From positions 1,066,779 to 1,130,778 of the forward strand of contig NC_030383.2 of the NCBI RefSeq assembly GCF_001625215.2: 64,000 nt of DNA, read 5' to 3'. Under the pieces are notes generated by a model, which saw only the letters and a list, made by a program, of their open reading frames with translations, was not told the DNA's origin and ran no database searches. Source of the DNA: Daucus carota subsp. sativus (lineage: Eukaryota; Streptophyta; Magnoliopsida; Apiales; Apiaceae). Positions within the stretch are counted from its first letter, which is position 1, and every line of letters starts with the position of its first letter. Positions 1 through 31,600 of this stretch are shown piece by piece. Position numbers and translations under genes: made by a program.

Positions 1-557
1 AACCCAAAAAACTCCTCAAAGTAGCTTTTTCAAAATTAGATTTTTGGGTCTAAACCTCTATTTCAATCCGCTAAGAGCAAGTCCAACAATGTCATAACAA
101 TTGCCTTATAAATATAATAAAAAATAGTGTCCTAGTGATTTAGGACATCATTTTAATATACCAACTCCAACAACATGCCTTATTAATGTGCCTTATAATT
201 AAAATAGTAATATATTTGAATTATTGTTGGAGGGAAATGAAAAAGAGAGAGGAGAGAGATGTGTTAAAATGAGTGAAAGCTAATTTTTTATTGGTACAAA
301 TGATTTAGGACATGCATACTTGTGCCTCAAAAATAAGGCATTTGAGAGATGTCCTAGTGTTTTAAGGCACCACTAGGACATTGTTGGAGCACTCATTTGC
401 TTCAAATGCCTTAAATTTTGATTTAGGACATCAATTTGAGGCACTCTTGGACTTGCTCTAACTACCAAACACTTATATTAGCGGATTCTAGTGGTCAAAC
501 CTCTAAATCACTTAAACCTCTAATTTTGCCTCAAACCTCTAACTTCCAAACATGACC
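1..557 (-). mobile_element. Outer MITE, partial, interrupted by a second MITE
   Basis: Positions 1-71 and 459-557 together are the reverse complement of the element at 7759-8094. They share the blocks CTCCTCAAAGTAGC and CTACCAAACAC and a terminal CCAAACATGACC, which resembles CCAAACAGGGCC. The left end lies outside the window. The copy is split by the element at 75-458. It has no coding capacity. Confidence 0.75.
75..458. mobile_element. Tourist-like MITE, TIR GAGCAAGTCCAA, TSD TAA
   Basis: A 384-bp element with terminal inverted repeats GAGCAAGTCCAA (75-) and TTGGACTTGCTC (-458). TAA target duplications lie at 72-74 and 459-461. A 3-bp TAA/TTA target site is typical of PIF/Harbinger (Tourist) MITEs. 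The interior repeats TTTAGGACAT and AGGCAC and has no ORF. It sits inside the outer MITE. A fragment of the same family (CACTAGGACATTGTTGGA) occurs near 22100. Confidence 0.85.
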
Positions 558-2880
558 ATTATATAATTTAAATTAATTGATATAATTATCTAATTTCTAC
601 TATACTCTTTTGCGATAATTTAAAAGAGATCAAAATCCTTCCAAACAAGAACGAAATTCTAATACATTTTCAGATACAAATCTCCATCTCATTTTTACTA
701 TTATAAAAGTATTTTGAAATCTCGTGATCCAAACGATAGATCCATCAGACCGCTTGAAACCACAAGCTCTCGCAGCTTCGGTGGGGATAGCCGGAAGGAT
801 ATGAACAAAGAAAAGGTACAGTAGAGGGATCAAAATCACCCCTCAAGTCATTGTCCAAGAAGCACAAATGAATAATTGTGACAAATCCATTGGCGTATGA
901 ACAAGATGGGTTTTATTCATCAGTTGAATGGTCACTTTCAGCTAGAATTTGCAGAGGAGTTGTAAAGCACAAAAATAGTGAAAGAGCAGTTCCACTAAAC
1001 AACAGTGGTTGGTTTAGTACAAATTGATGGACTGGGAATGAGATTATTGGGAATTAATGCATGTGGTTTTTTTGACGTTTGATATAACGTGACAGTGACG
1101 CCATTCTACTTTTTCAGACAAGTCAATTGCTGTAGAACAAAATGTAAAAAAGGTGAAAAATAAGAGGAAATGTGGCTGGAGAATTCCATATGATTTATGA
1201 AATAAAATGGCCTTGTGACAGGCTTTTTTGCAGATCTAACTTGGCTGAGTTTGGGCTTGGAGGCCCGTATCGTAGTTTTGATTTTTAGTCCAACTTATCA
1301 AGACTTACGATCTACGAATACGGTGAAACCTCTAAATTCTAATATTATTTTATCGTGAATCCTTAATTAGTAAGTGGCGAGATTGTATTGAGATCAGGGG
1401 AGAGCCGGTACGGCGAATAAAATCGGAATAACGTGGGTTTTAATAATTGAAAATGTCAATCGCAATTTTATAATTTGGTTTCGGTTTCGACTTCAAAACT
1501 TCAGATGGATTTTATTTGTTCGGTTTTGGATAAAAAATTGTATAAACAGAAGAAAGAATTATTATACATGAATAATCAAAACTTGCGGAAGGGTATGAAA
1601 TTTCAGGCCTTTAGATGAAGAAGACAACAGTTAATATTAGTTTATATTACAAGAATAGCTCATGACAGAAACACGTCTCACAAATAAAAGCACATCTCTC
1701 ATGAATCTGCAAAATGCAAAACAAGATGGAAATGTTACAAATGTTACATGCATTATGAAAGGCAAACAAAGAGAGAATTTTTAAATGCTAAACTATGCAG
1801 AGAACGCTTATCTTGCATCTAAATAAGCGATCAAAAAAGGAACATTTATACACAGATACACGTGCAAATTCTTAATTTAAAAATTAACCTTTCATATAAA
1901 TTCGAAATAATATATAATATTTATTTTATAAATTGGTCAGTTTTTTTTGGATCGATTCCTATTTTCTAAATATAACATGAACCGAATAATCGATTCAAGT
2001 TTGATTTCTAAATTTTCAGTTTTGATTTCAGTTGGACGTCATATACTATTTCAGATTTTAGCAGTTTAGCAATTTTTAGTTTCAGTTTTATTCAATTTTT
2101 TTTTCATTTTCAAGCAGGTTGTTAAGGGTTAATTTTACATTCAGAATTATAGATTATACATTTTCCGAATGGCAGAGTTTAAACAAACAAAATTTGAATT
2201 TCTTTATTTAATCTAAATTTTTATTCTCATAATTTTCTAAAACTTGCTTCATTTTCTTTTACAGATGTAAATTACCAGTTAGTCAGCTAGTCTACGATTG
2301 TATTACTTCATTTAAATTCCGGCTAATAATATTCAATTTCATTCTATTTAATCTGTAATAAGATTTCCAAAAAAAAAAAATCTGTAATAATTTTAAAGTC
2401 TCTGCATTCCCTTAAAACATCGGCTAATCATGTATTATGCTTTTAATTAACTGTTATTTAAATCCCTTTTAATCTCACATTAACACTGCTCAATGCTCAT
2501 AACCAAATTAGAATAACACAATCTCCTATACCGTCAATATACAACAATATAAAGATAATTTCTTAATTTAGCCAGCACCATAAAATCCATAGGATATAGC
2601 TGCTTCAACTTGAATTTTAGACCTCAACACGAGTACAAACTGATCTGATCATATCCGATTCATCAGCACATTGCTGTGTAAATCATATCGCAAACTAAAA
2701 CCGAAAATATTTATTGGAATACCACTTTTTATTTTCGCAAAACCAACCTATCCCAGATCAATACTCACAAGAATAAAAATAGAAAAACAATCATCAAATA
2801 AATAAAACCAACATATCCACATCGCGGACAAAAAACAATTATTTAAATAAATAATAGAAAACGAATTCACACAATACTTG
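558..2880. other. Intergenic DNA; downstream part may be snoRNA transcript
   Basis: No supported gene. A 69-codon minus-strand ORF at 630-839 has a plausible composition but no start context, splice sites or recognisable domain, so it could be a decayed exon. About 2500-2880 lies downstream of the snoRNA genes on the minus strand and has TGATGA motifs near 2671 and 2791 without a convincing paired CTGA. The rest is AT-rich, with C-G-G-T-T-T repeats near 1430-1510 and 1970-2100. Confidence 0.5.
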
Positions 2881-2961
2881 TGAAGCATTCAGAATGAGTA
2901 GGAGGTGTTGATCATCACTTTAAAAATCGGAATATTTATAGTTCATCATCACTATGCTCAC
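2881..2961 (-). ncRNA. U24: Box C/D snoRNA, U24-like, guide to 25S AUGAGUAGGAG
   Basis: On the minus strand a terminal stem (GTGAGCAT, 2954-2961, with ATGCTTCAC, 2880-2888) encloses a C box (TGATGA in 2943-2952) and a D box CTGA at 2889-2892. The guide next to the D box is complementary to AATGAGTAGGAG (2893-2904). Plant 25S rRNA, recalled from memory, contains ATGAGTAGGAGG, which corresponds to the yeast A1449/G1450 region methylated under U24. A second box-C-like TGATGA lies internally at about 2912. The U24 name rests on guide identity alone. Confidence 0.75.
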
Positions 2962-3049
2962 AGTTGCTCCATAACAAGCAATATACTATTTATAAAAAAT
3001 AACAAGAACTGAAAATCGCTGAAGATAAAATCATCAGAAAGGATATAAA

Positions 3050-3128
3050 TCTCAATCAGCAGACACTACAAAAGTGCCTCTTCAGACGACCGTCGTGAGA
3101 ATTTGACATCCATATCATCAACTGAATC
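3050..3128 (-). ncRNA. snoR69Y: Box C/D snoRNA, snoR69-like, guide to 25S GACCGUCGUGAGA
   Basis: Minus strand. The C box TGATGA is at 3115-3120, a D or D' box CTGA at 3082-3085, and a second CTGA at 3056-3059. The guide just before the first CTGA is a 13-nt perfect complement of GACCGTCGTGAGA (3088-3100). That is a highly conserved 25S/28S segment whose C is methylated under yeast snR69 (C2948). The fifth base upstream of CTGA pairs with that C, as the box-D+5 rule requires. The 3' boundary is uncertain because another CTGA occurs at 3034-3037. Confidence 0.8.
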
Positions 3129-3221
3129 ATGTCACACACTCTCCGCTCCGTCTCATTCATTTATATTTTATTCGGAAACTAATTTCGACATCAATATATC
3201 AAATTTTACAAACTAAAGATA

Positions 3222-3305
3222 CAAGCTCAGATAATTGCACCAGCATTTCACTGACAAAGTCTCATAAGTCCAGACATAAATTAAGAGCAAAATCATCATC
3301 GCTAA
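3222..3305 (-). ncRNA. Box C/D snoRNA candidate, guide to 18S GUCCAGACAUA
   Basis: Minus strand. The C box ATGATGA is at about 3293-3299 and the D box CTGA at 3227-3230, with a weak terminal stem (AGC/GCT). The segment 3268-3278 has the sense sequence GTCCAGACATA, an 11-nt match to a conserved plant 18S rRNA segment (GGTCCAGACATAG, from memory). It precedes a degenerate D' (ATGA). The guide next to the main D box has no rRNA match that I recognise. This is less certain than its neighbours. Confidence 0.6.
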
Positions 3306-3344
3306 TCACAACTTAATCCTTAATTAACACCAAGCAATCAAATT

Positions 3345-3440
3345 AATCTCAGATAAGCTCCACATTGTGGATTTTATACAGACAATCAACATGGCATCAG
3401 TTCAGACCGCCCGTCTGCTTTTTATCCTCATCGAAATAAT
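3345..3440 (-). ncRNA. U43: Box C/D snoRNA, U43/snR70-like, guide to 18S ACCGCCCGUC
   Basis: Minus strand. A C-box-like TCGATGA is at 3428-3434, CTGA (D') at 3402-3405 and a second CTGA at 3349-3352. The guide GACGGGCGGT directly abuts the first CTGA and is complementary to ACCGCCCGTC (3406-3415). That is the universally conserved segment near the 3' end of 18S rRNA. The fifth base from the box pairs with the C methylated under yeast snR70 and animal U43. The C box is imperfect and the ends are not fixed by a strong terminal stem. Confidence 0.72.
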
Positions 3441-3480
3441 CAACAAATACACAAAATTAAATCAATAAATAAATTATTAA

Positions 3481-3572
3481 CGGGAAAGCATCAGATAATA
3501 AGCGGAGTTTTGTTCCACATAATATTTCAGTGGTTAAGCATAAAAACAATTTTAACATCACTTGCTTTCCCC
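3481..3572 (-). ncRNA. Box C/D snoRNA with double guide to the 25S 5' end
   Basis: Minus strand. A 10-bp terminal stem (GGGGAAAGCA, about 3563-3572, with TGCTTTCCCG, 3481-3490) encloses C box GTGATGT (3555-3561), D' CTGA (3527-3530) and D CTGA (3491-3494). The D guide is complementary to AATAAGCGGAG (3497-3507). The D' guide is complementary to TTAAGCATA (within 3531-3545). Both targets lie next to each other near the 5' end of plant 25S rRNA (TTTAAGCATATCAATAAGCGGAGG region, split here as two motifs). This is one of the best-formed snoRNAs in the cluster. Confidence 0.82.
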
Positions 3573-3611
3573 TTAAGAAAATAATTCAAAAATTGAAAAT
3601 TATTAAAATGA

Positions 3612-3692
3612 ATAGGCATCAGAGAATAATTTGAGAATAGTTATCAACACAAACAATCAGTGTGTAGGATAAGATTAAACATCATATGCCAT
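3612..3692 (-). ncRNA. Box C/D snoRNA, D' guide to 25S GUGUAGGAUAAG
   Basis: Minus strand. The C box ATGATGT is at 3679-3685, D' CTGA at 3657-3660, a C'-like TTGATAA at about 3641-3647 and D CTGA at 3619-3622. The terminal stem is GGCA/TGCC. The D' guide is complementary to GTGTAGGATAAG (3662-3673), a 12-nt match to a conserved 25S segment (GGTGTAGGATAAGTGGGAG, from memory). The D guide has no target that I recognise. Confidence 0.78.
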
Positions 3693-4040
3693 AAAAAAAT
3701 ATAATAATTAAACACGCTCACGCACCCAAACAATTTAAACCACCCGAACTCTCGACTTCCGATAAGCGGAGAGAATATATGTTATGCATATATAGGAAGG
3801 TCCATTTGACTCCAGTGCTAAACTAATAGAAGCAAAGGGTTGGTAAGCCATCCTGAAGATCGATATATGCACCAGTTATATCTCCTTGTGTATACATACA
3901 GATTTTTCACAAAGAGAGGGTAAACCAGATGCAAATACATAACAATATATGTTATTCATTTTAGAAAAAATAAGGCTGATTTCTAATAATCATATTCATA
4001 CCTCAGAGGCGGAGGGATGAATAAGAAAAGGCAAGGGAAG
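3693..4040 (-). other. Leader of the snoRNA transcript, possible further ncRNA
   Basis: Minus strand, between the promoter and the first clear C/D gene. A consensus-like donor (CTCTGAG then GTATGA) occurs near 4002. TCTCTTTGTG and CACAAGGAGA (about 3862-3920) can form a 10-bp stem, followed by other helices and an ACA. This could be an H/ACA RNA, but the pocket and H box are not clear enough to call. Confidence 0.35.
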
Positions 4041-4155
4041 GTGATATATATAGGGATTGATTTGGAGCTAGCCAACTAGGGTTTAGTAAGCCCATGGATT
4101 GGGTTTTGGGCTTGGCATATAAATCTGTTCATGAGCCCACTTCACAGGCCCACGG
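4041..4155 (-). promoter_or_regulatory. Promoter of the snoRNA cluster: TATA, telo-box, site II
   Basis: Read on the minus strand, a TATA stretch (4043-4052) lies just upstream of the cluster. Above it is a telo-box AAACCCTA (4077-4084), then three site II elements TGGGCY (4089-4094, 4134-4139, 4147-4152). Telo-box plus site II is the usual promoter combination of plant ribosomal-protein and snoRNA genes. It supports transcription of the cluster as one minus-strand precursor. Confidence 0.75.
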
Positions 4156-4461
4156 TTCTACAACCCAACACTAGCACTCTATCATTACACTATTATTAAA
4201 ATTAAAATATTAAAAAAATTATTATTAAGCGGAAACATTAAAAATTTAAGTCGTTTAGCTGGTATTTGGTCTACAACCAAATTTCAGAAAGAGTAAAGAA
4301 AATTGAAAGATAAAATTTTTTGAAATTGTATATTTATTATTAATTAATTAATTAAAAAAGATGTTATGCACATAAAATCTAATTAGACCCAATACAAATT
4401 AATTTTAAAATTCTAGTCAAGTATCAGACATATTTTAGGATAACTTAAAACCACAGTCTAA
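4156..4461. other. Intergenic spacer
   Basis: AT-rich DNA with no ORF, repeat or RNA motif that I can support. Confidence 0.5.
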
Positions 4462-4813
4462 GAGCATCTTCAACGGTGTTGGCTATAATAGTTGGCTAAA
4501 TTGGACCTGTGAGACATTATGTAAAATTTGCTGAACCTGTAAAACATTTTGCTACAATGGTACTGGCTATATTGGTTGGTTATAATTTAAAAATAGTATG
4601 TTATTAATATTTTAAATTGTAAAAATAGAATATATCAGTTCAATATGGTAATAAATGATGTACAATCTTCCTACAGATTTTCTTACAGACCTGTAGAGGT
4701 TCGATAAATTTAGCCATCCATAGGAGGTTGGCTCATGGTTGGAGTTGAAATCTTTTTATTTTAAGTATGCCAACTCATCTTTAGCCAAGTGCTTTAGATG
4801 GTTGAAGATGCTC
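4462..4813. mobile_element. Tourist-like MITE, TIR GAGCATCTTCAAC, TSD TAA
   Basis: A 352-bp element with TIRs GAGCATCTTCAAC (4462-) and GTTGAAGATGCTC (4801-4813), and TAA duplications at 4459-4461 and 4814-4816. Its interior (GGTGTTGGCTATAAT, GTTGGCTAAATTGGACC) is nearly the same as the element at 16894-17287, so two members of one family sit upstream of two genes of the same F-box array. The ORF starting at 4798 begins inside its terminal repeat and is not a gene. Confidence 0.88.
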
Positions 4814-5170: not shown

Positions 5171-6382
5171 ATGAAGAATGTGAACTTTTACATACCAGAT
5201 GAAGTATGGGAACAGATTTTTTTACGCGAGCCAGTGGAGACACTTATACGATGGAAGTGTGTTTGTAAAAAATGGAACCGAATCATCAGCGACAAGTCCT
5301 TCATCAAAGACTATGGTCTCCATCAAAAAACATCCCAAAACACACGTAAATATTTACTCCTCAACTACTGTGATCGCAAAATAGATTCAGCCCTTCCGAG
5401 CCCTTTTAATTATCGGGATCATCCACGACTCCATCGACTTAGGATCGGGCACTATGATTCCTGCTACTCAGCAGGCCTCATCGATAGAAATTCATCATAT
5501 AATGTTCTCGAATATTACAATGACATATTTTGCAGAGATCTCACTAGATGTTGTCTAGAGGTTTACGGTATTTGTGATGGTTTATTATGTTTGGCTGTTC
5601 ATGCCAATTATTTACGCGATGATTTTCCTATATTTTTATATAATCCGTTCATCAGAAAGGGGAAGAAACTAATTCCTCCTAGGCGTGCAGGTGCAGATAA
5701 CTTCACATTGTTTGTTTCGTTGTGTTTCGGGTTTCACGATGATGATTACAAAGTACTCAGGGTTCTTGCATTTCAGAATAGGTACGAGATTTATGTTTAT
5801 AGTCTGAACACCGATAGTTGGAAGTTTGTGAAAGCTGAGGTTAATATTGAAGATGGAGGGAGCTTGGAAAAATTTAATGTTCTGCCGTACCCTAAGGCCA
5901 GATTAGTAAAAGGTGTCGCGTATTTCATACAAGGTAACAGAATTATATCATATGATCTCGATGATGAGAAAATCAGGAAAATACAATTGCCGGGAGATAT
6001 GAGTTCTGCTACCCATGTTATCATGGAAGAATACGGAGAATCAATAGCTCTAATCGGATCTAATGCTCAATTTTACAATACCTATAATGTCTGGGCTATT
6101 GGCTATGGTGTGGTGATGTGGGTACTGAAACAGAGTGACAACTCTAATATATGGGAAAAAAAGTTCGATATCAGAGGGGGAGGAATTAATAAGCATCGGT
6201 GGATCCTTTATCCTGTTGTGCAAGCTATGGGAGGCTTCGTTAATAACAATGAACTTGTGATGAGGAAGTGGAAGATTTACGGTGATAAATATCTGCATCG
6301 TGAGTATTTTCTGTTCAACGTAGAAACTGGATTTCAAAAACAAATTTCAAGACCACGCGAACAAGCAAGAGGAGAATTTTAA
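5171..6382 (+). CDS. F-box/FBA protein, CPR1-like (array copy 1), C-terminally truncated
   Basis: A single-exon protein of 403 aa. The F-box is at residues 7-50 (YIPDEVWEQI, then RWKCVCKKWNRIISD) and should bind SKP1 in an SCF ubiquitin ligase. The rest is an F-box-associated type 1 domain with the usual landmarks VYGICDGLLCL, LYNPFIRKGKKL, LCFGFHDDDYKVLRV and YSLNTDSWK, which recruits the target. CPR1 in Arabidopsis limits NLR immune receptors, but the substrate here is unknown. A TAA at 6380-6382 replaces the TTA found in copies 3 and 5. The paralogous reading continues open to a stop at 6494-6496, so about 37 C-terminal residues (including NILTESLVLLTE) are lost. It may still work, because the loss lies beyond the core FBA domain. 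Confidence 0.85.
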   Translation: MKNVNFYIPDEVWEQIFLREPVETLIRWKCVCKKWNRIISDKSFIKDYGLHQKTSQNTRKYLLLNYCDRKIDSALPSPFNYRDHPRLHRLRIGHYDSCYSAGLIDRNSSYNVLEYYNDIFCRDLTRCCLEVYGICDGLLCLAVHANYLRDDFPIFLYNPFIRKGKKLIPPRRAGADNFTLFVSLCFGFHDDDYKVLRVLAFQNRYEIYVYSLNTDSWKFVKAEVNIEDGGSLEKFNVLPYPKARLVKGVAYFIQGNRIISYDLDDEKIRKIQLPGDMSSATHVIMEEYGESIALIGSNAQFYNTYNVWAIGYGVVMWVLKQSDNSNIWEKKFDIRGGGINKHRWILYPVVQAMGGFVNNNELVMRKWKIYGDKYLHREYFLFNVETGFQKQISRPREQARGEF

Positions 6383-28605: not shown

Positions 28606-31600
28606 TTAGCTTGCGAGATTTGTATTGTTTTCACCATATTCAAAATATTTCACATGGCATAGCACCCCACCAGCTTCATCTGCAAATGATATTTTCTTTT
28701 TCTCCCTATGCATCATGGTTTCTTTAGCAGCAGAGGCATCCAGGGTCGATTTCTGTGGTTGAGACTTCAGAGATTGAAAACAAAACAAAGTAGGAAGTGA
28801 GGAAAATACTACAATCTTCTCAACAGTATTTATAACTTGCTAAATTGTTATTACTTTAGTTCAGATATATATTTACTATATAGAAAAGTTAAAGACTGAG
28901 ACGCAAACCATAATTTTACAGAAACGGTTGCAATCTCTTGCCATCATAGACAGCCACTTTTTTGTTGTTTCCTCGACTTTAGTTGCACTCTTGATAGCTG
29001 ATTTCACCTGTTAAGAGAGATTTCAACAGGTTAAGAAAATAAATCATTGCACGTGAACAAACACCATATACGTCTGAGCACAAACACATATGAGAAGCTG
29101 TGAGAATATATTGATGACATAAAAATTACAGTGTGTACTACTAATGACATCCGCATAACACACAAGAGTTGACAGAAAGGAGGGGACAGTAAGAACCTCA
29201 TAATACAGGCTATGGGCTATTAAATCACTATAGAGTCATCATGACAGCCCAAAATAAGTACAAGGTTCATTGACTAGAGCATAGCACAATCATGTTCACA
29301 GATAACTATTAAAAGAAGCATCCAGCAGGCAGAAATCATTTAGATGAAACAGCTAAAGATTACTAAGCAGCAGAGATGTTTCTAGCCTTATATACCTCAT
29401 CAGCATCATTTTTCATAGATGTACTGCGGTATGCTTCATAGAGCAATTTTTCTTCTACCATGTCTTTCATTGACTTCAACTCTGTCATAAGCTTCGCCGC
29501 TACAGACTCTATGTCCTGCATCTGTCGCTGGGAAAATGAAATTGCCCTTTCATGACAAGCTTCAATAGAGCTTCTTCCTTTGTACATACCAGGAAGCAAA
29601 CGAGTAGGTTGTGAACCTACAAGACGGCCTATAGGTGAACATTTTTCAGGCAAGGAACCTTTCTTATTGTGCTTTGATTTCTTGAGGATTTTCTTGGGGG
29701 ATAAAATTGCTTTTCTGAGAATCCTCTGTTCAGTCAATTCACCTTTCGCGCATGATTCTACACCTGTAGTGTCGGATACCTCTGATAAAGCATTGTCCTC
29801 AGTTTGGTTACCAACGAAACGCTTTCCCTTGCATTCTAAAACGCAAATAGAAAGGAGAAGTCAATTACAGAAAGAAAAGGCCTCTTGACATTTCTTCAAC
29901 CTATAAAATAATAAAATGAATCTACTAATACTTATAAGGGATGCAATAAAAATTTCAAATTCACCCTTTTGCAGTATATCGTATGTGTGTGTGCAGGGTA
30001 AGTGAGAGAGCGATGCAGAAGCATATCAGTATATGCCTAAACCATTTATACAGTAGTAAAGACACAATTGAATCTGCAACAATTCCAGGACTTTACTCAG
30101 CCATCTCAAATTGCTGTAAAGGTTTATGCAGAACAATCTAAATGAAGATGGCCTGATTACTATTAAAAGTTTTTGAGAGAATGTTACATTATATCTTGTT
30201 TACATTCTTCTAAACAGGTTATGTGTTGCAAAGGATTTAGTATCTGAATCCTTGTAAAATATCTGCTATAAACAACTTACTATGATCCCCAATGTCGTCG
30301 GTCAGCTCCCTGTAGTTCGTTGTCAGACACACCTTCTCCTGGAAAGTTGGAGAAATAACCTGAGAGTATATAAAATGACAATCAGCAACTTTCAAGAATC
30401 GAAAGGAAAAAAGTCTGGCTTGTAATTTTTAAGACAAAAAGTAAAGTCAACTTCATATGACATAGAATACCTTTTTCGTCGAGGGAAATCTCTCAGGAGG
30501 TTGCCACAGCACTATATCACCCTGATTGCAAGTCTCTGGACTTGAAAGCTCGTTATCATCACAGCCGGAGAGACTAATTTCGGCATCAGTGTTTATAGGT
30601 AATAGCAACTGTTTCTCATTTGCAAAGGCAGCATCCTCCAAGTCAGTAGGATAAATATTAGGCTCTACACAATATCCTGATGTGTTTGAATTGTAGGTTG
30701 TCAAAGACCAGTCATTCTCAATTGTCCGTGAGTATATTTCCTCGGCGACCAAATCACTGTCGGAAGCTGAGCATGGATAAAAATTCCAAGGTGAAATATA
30801 ATAAGAGAATGGACTTCTCGGGGAAACATTTGGCAGGTGATGTGGCAAATTAGTTTCATTGACATCATCAAAAATTGATAATGTAATACCTCGACCACTT
30901 TTAATGAGACAAAGACCATCACTGGTTGCCACATTAGAATCTCTATATTCAGACTCATTCCAAAGAATCTCTGGCATATTCAAACAACTCTGGGGAGCAC
31001 TTAACATATCTAACCGATTCCTGGCATCATCCTCAAAAACGCACAACTCACTGCCATTTACAAAATTGGTAGAAGAAATACCGTTATCAAGAGGCATCTC
31101 AGAAACTTCATCTTTAGTTTTGTGGATAACTAAACTTTTATCATTGATGTTTTTATCTGTCAGCAGAAAGCTTTGACTAGATGGCGACTGCAAAATATCA
31201 GACTCTTTGTGCAATTCTGATGCACGGGAAGCAGGATGTCGACACGACTCCTGAGTACCTGATCCCACAGTCTTCTCACTAGGTGGAGGAATAAAAGACA
31301 GAGGCATATAATCAACCTCTGGTTGACTGAGAGAAAATGTGTTAACACGTGCTTCACATTGTCCTGCTGATGATATGGTTTCCTTGTTTTCTAGGAAACC
31401 AGATATGTTAACACATGTTTCCTGTTGTCCTGCTAATGATATGGTTTCCTTGTTCTCTAGGATAGTATCAGAAGTCTGGAGGATCTGAGAGGAGTCCATG
31501 TCATATACGCTAACTTGCTCACCAGAACTGGAGGGACCATCAGTTGTTTCAGCAGCAAAATTCAGAGCCTGGAGTTCAGAGAGGCAAAATGTAGAAGCCT

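Follow-up and report, generated by a model that had tools for sequence, protein, structure and literature searches.

A tandem cluster of six predicted box C/D snoRNA units containing a snoR16 pair whose guides look divided

What does the minus strand of the window (the whole 64-kb stretch of DNA analysed here) carry between positions 2881 and 3693? A sequence-only reading had placed six minus-strand box C/D snoRNA units within 812 bp in this region. Six tandem box C/D units were indeed found there, four of them assigned to Rfam families and two recognized by their boxes and guides. The four units matched at the gathering score were snoR16 twice (61.5 and 67.2 bits), snoZ161_228, that is U35 (54.0 bits), and snoZ105, that is U38 (54.5 bits), the curated cut-off being 45 bits in each case. 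In the search of the 64 kb, the E-values of these units ranged from 2.2e-6 to 1.1e-9. Along the minus strand, the order of the units is snoR16a, snoR16b, U43, a guide for 18S C1219, U35 and U38 (units 1 to 6). The U43 and C1219 units were named from boxes, guides and order, without Rfam support; unit 3 was filed by guide target and order, and unit 4 by guide target. A pattern scan detected a C-like box and a CTGA D box in 6/6 units, in agreement with the C box and CTGA boxes claimed for each, with two departures from the standard boxes: unit 3 has ATGAGGA as its C box, and unit 4 has ATGA as its D' box. The same reading had described good terminal stems for three units; such stems were recognized in units 1, 2 and 6, while those of units 3, 4 and 5 are short or weak, the flanks being judged by eye. 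An Rfam-based pipeline would recover at least four of the six units. As far as sequence can tell, a tandem C/D snoRNA gene cluster, as first proposed, is by far the best reading of the region, supported by the Rfam families, the register of the D+5 positions, the promoter and a paralogous U35-U38 cluster, each of which is described below.

The guides of the units had also been described as complementary to rRNA. A 5.8S search of the assembly returned two rDNA places, both truncated or decayed, the other pieces being short. Since no intact rDNA was found in the assembly, the comparison with rRNA was based on fragments. The own-genome pieces L006, L007, L136 and L140 are remnants of rDNA, truncated or decayed, that lie scattered over contigs C3, C4 and C7, and the LSU matches of L006 and L136 both stop at model position 358. 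Eukaryotic 18S and 25S rRNA is also carried by the IMG/VR 'viral' contigs L009 and L010, which are probably mis-binned because they carry such rRNA; the SSU rRNA of L009 is eukaryotic and comes from a eukaryote other than the window's.

With these fragments, the claim of complementarity stood for four units. The sequence AATAAGCGGAG, for unit 2, is present exactly in the own-genome 25S 5' fragment L006, and GACCGTCGTGAGA, for unit 5, in the own-genome 25S 3' fragment L140. For units 3 and 4, ACCGCCCGTC and GTCCAGACATA are present exactly in the 18S piece of L009. For units 1 and 6, the corresponding sequences GTGTAGGATAAG and ATGAGTAGGAG occurred in no rRNA fragment compared (exact matches in all, up to one mismatch in some loci). 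In IMG/VR, two 18-base patterns around GTGTAGGATAAG and ATGAGTAGGAG gave no exact match, and the same was true of a pattern around the unit 2 target. The own-genome pieces L129 and L130 carry the unit 2 target with one base different. In L137 and L138, two 18S-like pieces of the same genome, no match of up to one mismatch was found to the target of unit 3 or unit 4.

The Arabidopsis map, as given in Table 1 of PMC8053127, assigns 25S U48 to SnoR16, U2456 to SnoR16.1, A1143 to U38 and C2960 to U35, and 18S C1219 to SnoR166 and C1645 to U43. PMC8351944 gives a predicted Cm1219 under another snoRNA name. In the register test, the D+5 (or D'+5) base of a unit was fixed as the published site, and the letters at the other Arabidopsis sites were compared. 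All unit coordinates given in the following are on the minus strand.

Unit 5, U35 (snoZ161_228; Rfam RF00328), spans 3029..3128, with the C box TTGATGA at 3121-3115, the guide TCTCACGACGGTC at 3099-3087, the D' box CTGA at 3085-3082 and the D box CTGA at 3037-3034. Its target is 25S C2960. When the base was fixed as C2960 on L140, 10/11 other sites agreed, from 2816 to 2949; the single miss, G2816, is still inside the Rfam match, and the stretch 2837-2949 gives 10/10. On L010, the same register agreed at three of the five other sites. For unit 2 fixed as U48 on L006, two of the three others agreed (U44/U48/U144), and the miss, G399, lies beyond the homologous stretch.

Unit 4, the guide for 18S C1219 (the SnoR166 site), was placed at 3222..3306, its ends being approximate. 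It has the C box ATGATGA at 3299-3293, the guide at 3279-3266, the D' box ATGA at 3265-3262 and the D box CTGA at 3230-3227. With the 18S of L009 the guide forms a 14-nt duplex of 12 Watson-Crick and 2 G-U pairs. When its D'+5 base was fixed as C1219 on L009, 7/9 other sites agreed, including all of the six nearest. Unit 4 had no Rfam match at threshold; weak ones appeared at E<=10, the best being snoR1 with 23.8 bits against a cut-off of 49.

The U43-like unit 3 (3343..3437, ends approximate) was recognized from its boxes, its 18S target in L009 and its order beside snoR16. The C box ATGAGGA lies at 3431-3425, the guide GACGGGCGGT at 3415-3406, the D' box CTGA at 3405-3402 and the D box CTGA at 3352-3349. 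No Rfam match was obtained for it, even at E<=10. Its predicted target is 18S C1645, a register in which one of four other sites agreed on L009. The same guide can also pair over a longer stretch, 14 nt, with the 25S piece in L140, through 11 Watson-Crick and three G-U pairs. The 18S site was preferred over this run because it is a published site and forms Watson-Crick pairs throughout. The misses for C1645 on L009, along with those for C2960 on L010, were tentatively put down to length differences. Overall, the D+5 positions fit the Arabidopsis sites U48, C2960 and C1219, and fit C1645 less firmly.

Two units remain whose targets were not among the fragments. The U38-like unit 6 (snoZ105; Rfam RF00145) spans 2881..2962, the Rfam match covering 2889-2957, and has two GTGATGA motifs, the C box at 2952-2946 and the C' box at 2918-2912, followed by the guide CTCCTACTCAT at 2904-2894 and the D box CTGA at 2892-2889. 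We take its predicted target to be 25S A1143, going by the family, the 25S sequence and the Arabidopsis table cited above. Unit 1, snoR16 copy a, was placed at 3612..3693 by Rfam RF00296 and alignment; its C box is at 3685-3679, the guide TCTTATCCTACACA at 3674-3661, the D' box CTGA at 3660-3657 and the D box CTGA at 3622-3619. Its D' guide is presumably directed at 25S U2456 (Arabidopsis number), on the same three grounds of family, table and 25S sequence. Among 54 prokaryote LSU records, a sequence related to the unit 1 target (up to three mismatches) preceded the unit 5 target by 471-479 nt in 15, stood at another distance in 20, and was absent from 19; 26 of 80 loci, in which the upstream part was missing, were left out of this count. 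The prokaryote count is no more than an indirect fit to the spacing between U2456 and C2960.

Could such an arrangement of motifs arise by chance in AT-rich DNA that holds no RNA genes? Guide-like matches are certainly not confined to the cluster. A perfect complement of at least 10 nt to the rRNA pieces (2,623 nt) was found beside 10 of the 437 CTGA sites of the window; three of these sites lie in cluster units and seven outside the six units (two on the opposite strand, within the cluster or close to it, and five in other parts of the window). The two usable controls, the second being in effect a reverse complement, gave 3 and 5 sites; a third was identical to the original and was discarded. 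Guide matches beside CTGA are thus weak when taken alone, and the case rests on the Rfam scores, the register and the paralog. Four units with the E-values given above in 64 kb, together with conservation in a paralog and the register on published sites, argue so strongly against a chance arrangement that we give it practically no credence. At position 31102 (minus strand) of the window, a 13-nt perfect complement to the SSU of L009, as long as the best guide, lies beside a CTGA; it is of low complexity, possibly sits in an insert and is likely due to chance.

A search of the window's own genome (441 Mb, 11 contigs) with the 812-base stretch returned one other locus, C3:7875425-7875656. This paralog, examined as L003 (G000:C3:7872500-7878500), is on the same chromosome as the window. 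It contains U35, then U38, plus a snoZ162-like unit at 3223-3318 (41.5 bits, below the cut-off of 45) that was not seen in the window cluster; no snoR16, U43 or C1219 unit was seen in L003. Its upstream region carries a telo box and a TATA box along with three or more site II motifs. The identity between the two loci was 89/96 for U35, 66/82 for U38, 43/67 for the spacer and 34/48 for the 3' flank. The guides were identical (13/13 for U35 and 12/12 for U38), each C box agreed at 6/7 positions and the D boxes were unchanged. Conservation of the guides above that of the spacers fits purifying selection. One chromosome, then, carries two paralogous U35-U38 clusters. Directly 3' of the paralogous cluster, at 3363-3579 of L003, there is an inverted-repeat element, probably a MITE, with a weak MIR7533-like match on both strands that is far below threshold.

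Another reading makes the window cluster a silent or decaying copy of a working one, its snoR16 copies and units 3-4 being on the way to becoming pseudogenes. Such decay would account for the loss of one guide from each snoR16 copy (see below), for the ATGA in place of the D' box of unit 4 and for the ATGAGGA C box of unit 3; the variant boxes, poor terminal stems and missing threshold Rfam matches of units 3 and 4 also count against the explanation by a working cluster. However, no snoR16 copy was found in the genome outside the cluster (in a search that gives a lower bound), no guide or D box has changed between units 5-6 and the paralog while the spacers have diverged, and the promoter set is complete. 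We therefore consider a decayed duplicate highly improbable.

The promoter was located by pattern scans at 4045..4152 on the minus strand. It comprises four site II motifs (4152-4147, 4139-4134 and 4094-4089, with another at 4112-4107 in the opposite orientation), the telo box AAACCCTA at 4084-4077 and a TATA box at 4052-4045. No other telo box in the 64-kb window has two or more site II motifs inside 150 nt. A layout with telo box, site II and TATA upstream is given for plant snoRNA genes in PMC3022908 and PMC4660826; the same sources and PMC9175010 describe the telo box/site II layout for plant snoRNA and ribosomal protein genes. They also describe plant snoRNA polycistrons as polymerase II transcripts, from which an RNase III homologue starts the release by endonuclease cleavage, trimming coming afterwards. 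From the single promoter and this plant precedent, we infer that the six units would be made as one polycistronic transcript.

The leader before the first snoRNA, at 3694..4020 on the minus strand, contains a possible plant-like 5' splice site, CTGAG/GTATGA, recognized by eye at 4006-3996. Shortly after the likely start, such a site would suit a different arrangement, in which the six snoRNAs are real but are contained in intron 1 of a non-coding host RNA that is spliced, rather than in an unspliced polycistron. By eye, the paralog L003 has CCGACAG/GTACAAG in a similar place, and a candidate 3' splice site, TTTTGCAG, is seen at about 1707 of the window. Yet no conserved downstream exon appeared when positions 1-4400 of the window were compared with L003, the two being strongly alike only at U35-U38 and some of the 3' flank, and no ORF of at least 80 aa was found in 1-4797. 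An intronic host is for these reasons unlikely, and the unspliced polycistron is retained as the preferred reading.

The leader, which gave no Rfam match at E<=10, also has a hairpin, at about 3933-3868, reminiscent of one half of an H/ACA RNA (folds with z of -1.76 and -2.15). An extra H/ACA snoRNA or a miRNA is not proposed, as the z of -1.76 only slightly beats shuffles and neither a proper H box nor an Rfam match was seen. A 16-nt word ending in AATAACATATATT is present twice in the leader, 170 nt apart and 94% alike. A tRNA-snoRNA dicistron was ruled out because the window is without tRNA. On the plus strand, at 5171-6382, the window carries a gene for an F-box-like protein of 403 aa (named by eye), divergent from the snoRNA cluster. 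This gene, the snoRNA families of plant type and the promoter with its telo box all point to a flowering plant.

The two copies of the snoR16 pair differ in the guide that they keep. Unit 2, copy b, spans 3484..3569 and was matched by Rfam RF00296, its 25S target being exact in the own-genome piece L006. Its C box is at 3561-3555, the D' box CTGA at 3530-3527, the guide CTCCGCTTATT at 3507-3497 and the D box CTGA at 3494-3491. SNORD36 also matches this unit, barely over threshold (30.3 against 30). The RF00296 consensus has the D' guide UUAUccUAcACA and the D guide CUCCGCUUAUUAU within one RNA. In copy a, the D' guide is kept and the core of the D guide is changed from CGC to AAA; at U48, a pairing scan of this copy against rRNA found no stretch of 9 pairs. 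In copy b it is the D guide, for 25S U48, that is kept, and the D' guide no longer fits U2456. A genome search for the family returned two snoR16 loci over the cut-off, both in the cluster, and no other, a count to be read as a lower bound since 86 of 40,236 first-look candidates were scored. From their sequences, the two copies look like a division of labour after tandem duplication.

Tentatively, with a confidence a little short of even, we propose that a bifunctional guide was duplicated in tandem and that the copies lost complementary halves, leaving copy a with U2456 only and copy b with U48 only. The freed D' segment of copy b may, as part of the same proposal, have become an accessory arm pairing with 25S nt 35-43, beside the target at nt 46-56. 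This segment forms 9 Watson-Crick pairs with 25S nt 35-43, adjoining the target of copy b itself, a match equalled by 0.7% of permutations (25S nt 16-90). The accessory pairing is treated as a lead only, because six second guide segments were inspected.

The split need not have been local, for plants may generally carry a U2456 isoform and U48 isoforms of snoR16 that happen to stand side by side here. Table 1 of PMC8053127 assigns Arabidopsis U2456 to SnoR16.1 alone and U48 to SnoR16 with several variants, and in the Rfam consensus the U2456 guide is the less well conserved stretch, written partly in lower case. The consensus nevertheless has both guides in one molecule, and copy a is without the U48 guide that the consensus shows to be well conserved. 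An old split is accordingly a serious possibility, though one towards which we do not lean. Among the open-licence matches listed, no paper was found on a division of snoR16 guides between copies, nor on subfunctionalisation of snoRNA guides of this kind. If the complementary loss holds, the pair would show, on a small scale but clearly, a guide RNA with two targets being split by tandem duplication.

Beyond the units, boxes, guides, four target sequences, promoter motifs and paralog described above, the rest is what we infer. Very probably, the locus is a plant polymerase II snoRNA cluster, with one promoter, one precursor, six C/D snoRNAs and a tandem duplication of snoR16. The promoter at 4152-4045, with its site II motifs, telo box and TATA box, would drive one minus-strand precursor carrying the six box C/D snoRNAs. 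An RNase III-type enzyme would cut the precursor between the units, and the ends would be trimmed to each C/D core. Each snoRNA would then enter a C/D snoRNP core, in which fibrillarin would methylate the ribose that faces guide position 5, counted upstream from D or D'. In Arabidopsis numbers, the methylation so predicted is at U2456, U48, C2960 and A1143 of 25S and at C1645 and C1219 of 18S; all six are known rRNA methylation sites of Arabidopsis, for which the locus would supply the predicted guides. Tandem duplication of snoR16 would have left the U2456 guide in copy a and the U48 guide in copy b.

How does this locus compare with known systems? The neighbourhood of snoR16 and U43 is known from Arabidopsis (snoR16.1-U43.1) and from rice cluster 66 (U43a-snoR16), as described in PMC5122169, and the window likewise has snoR16 and U43 in one cluster. 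Compared by description with these published clusters, the window differs in that its snoR16 is tandemly doubled with the guides divided, and in that C1219, U35 and U38 units follow. The second U35-U38 cluster, L003, shares with the window the order of U35 and then U38, the guides, the telo box, site II and TATA; it differs by its snoZ162-like unit downstream, with no snoR16, U43 or C1219 units seen. Both snoR16 copies of the window pass the gathering score of Rfam RF00296, whose consensus RNA has both guides, whereas each window copy keeps one. Like the TeloSII-driven polycistronic snoRNA genes of plants described in PMC3022908 and PMC4660826, the window locus is intergenic, holds several snoRNAs and has a telo box, site II and TATA upstream; from these sources there is no difference in kind, the window locus being known from its sequence motifs. 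As a plant C/D snoRNA cluster, the locus is of an ordinary kind, and its notable detail is the snoR16 pair.
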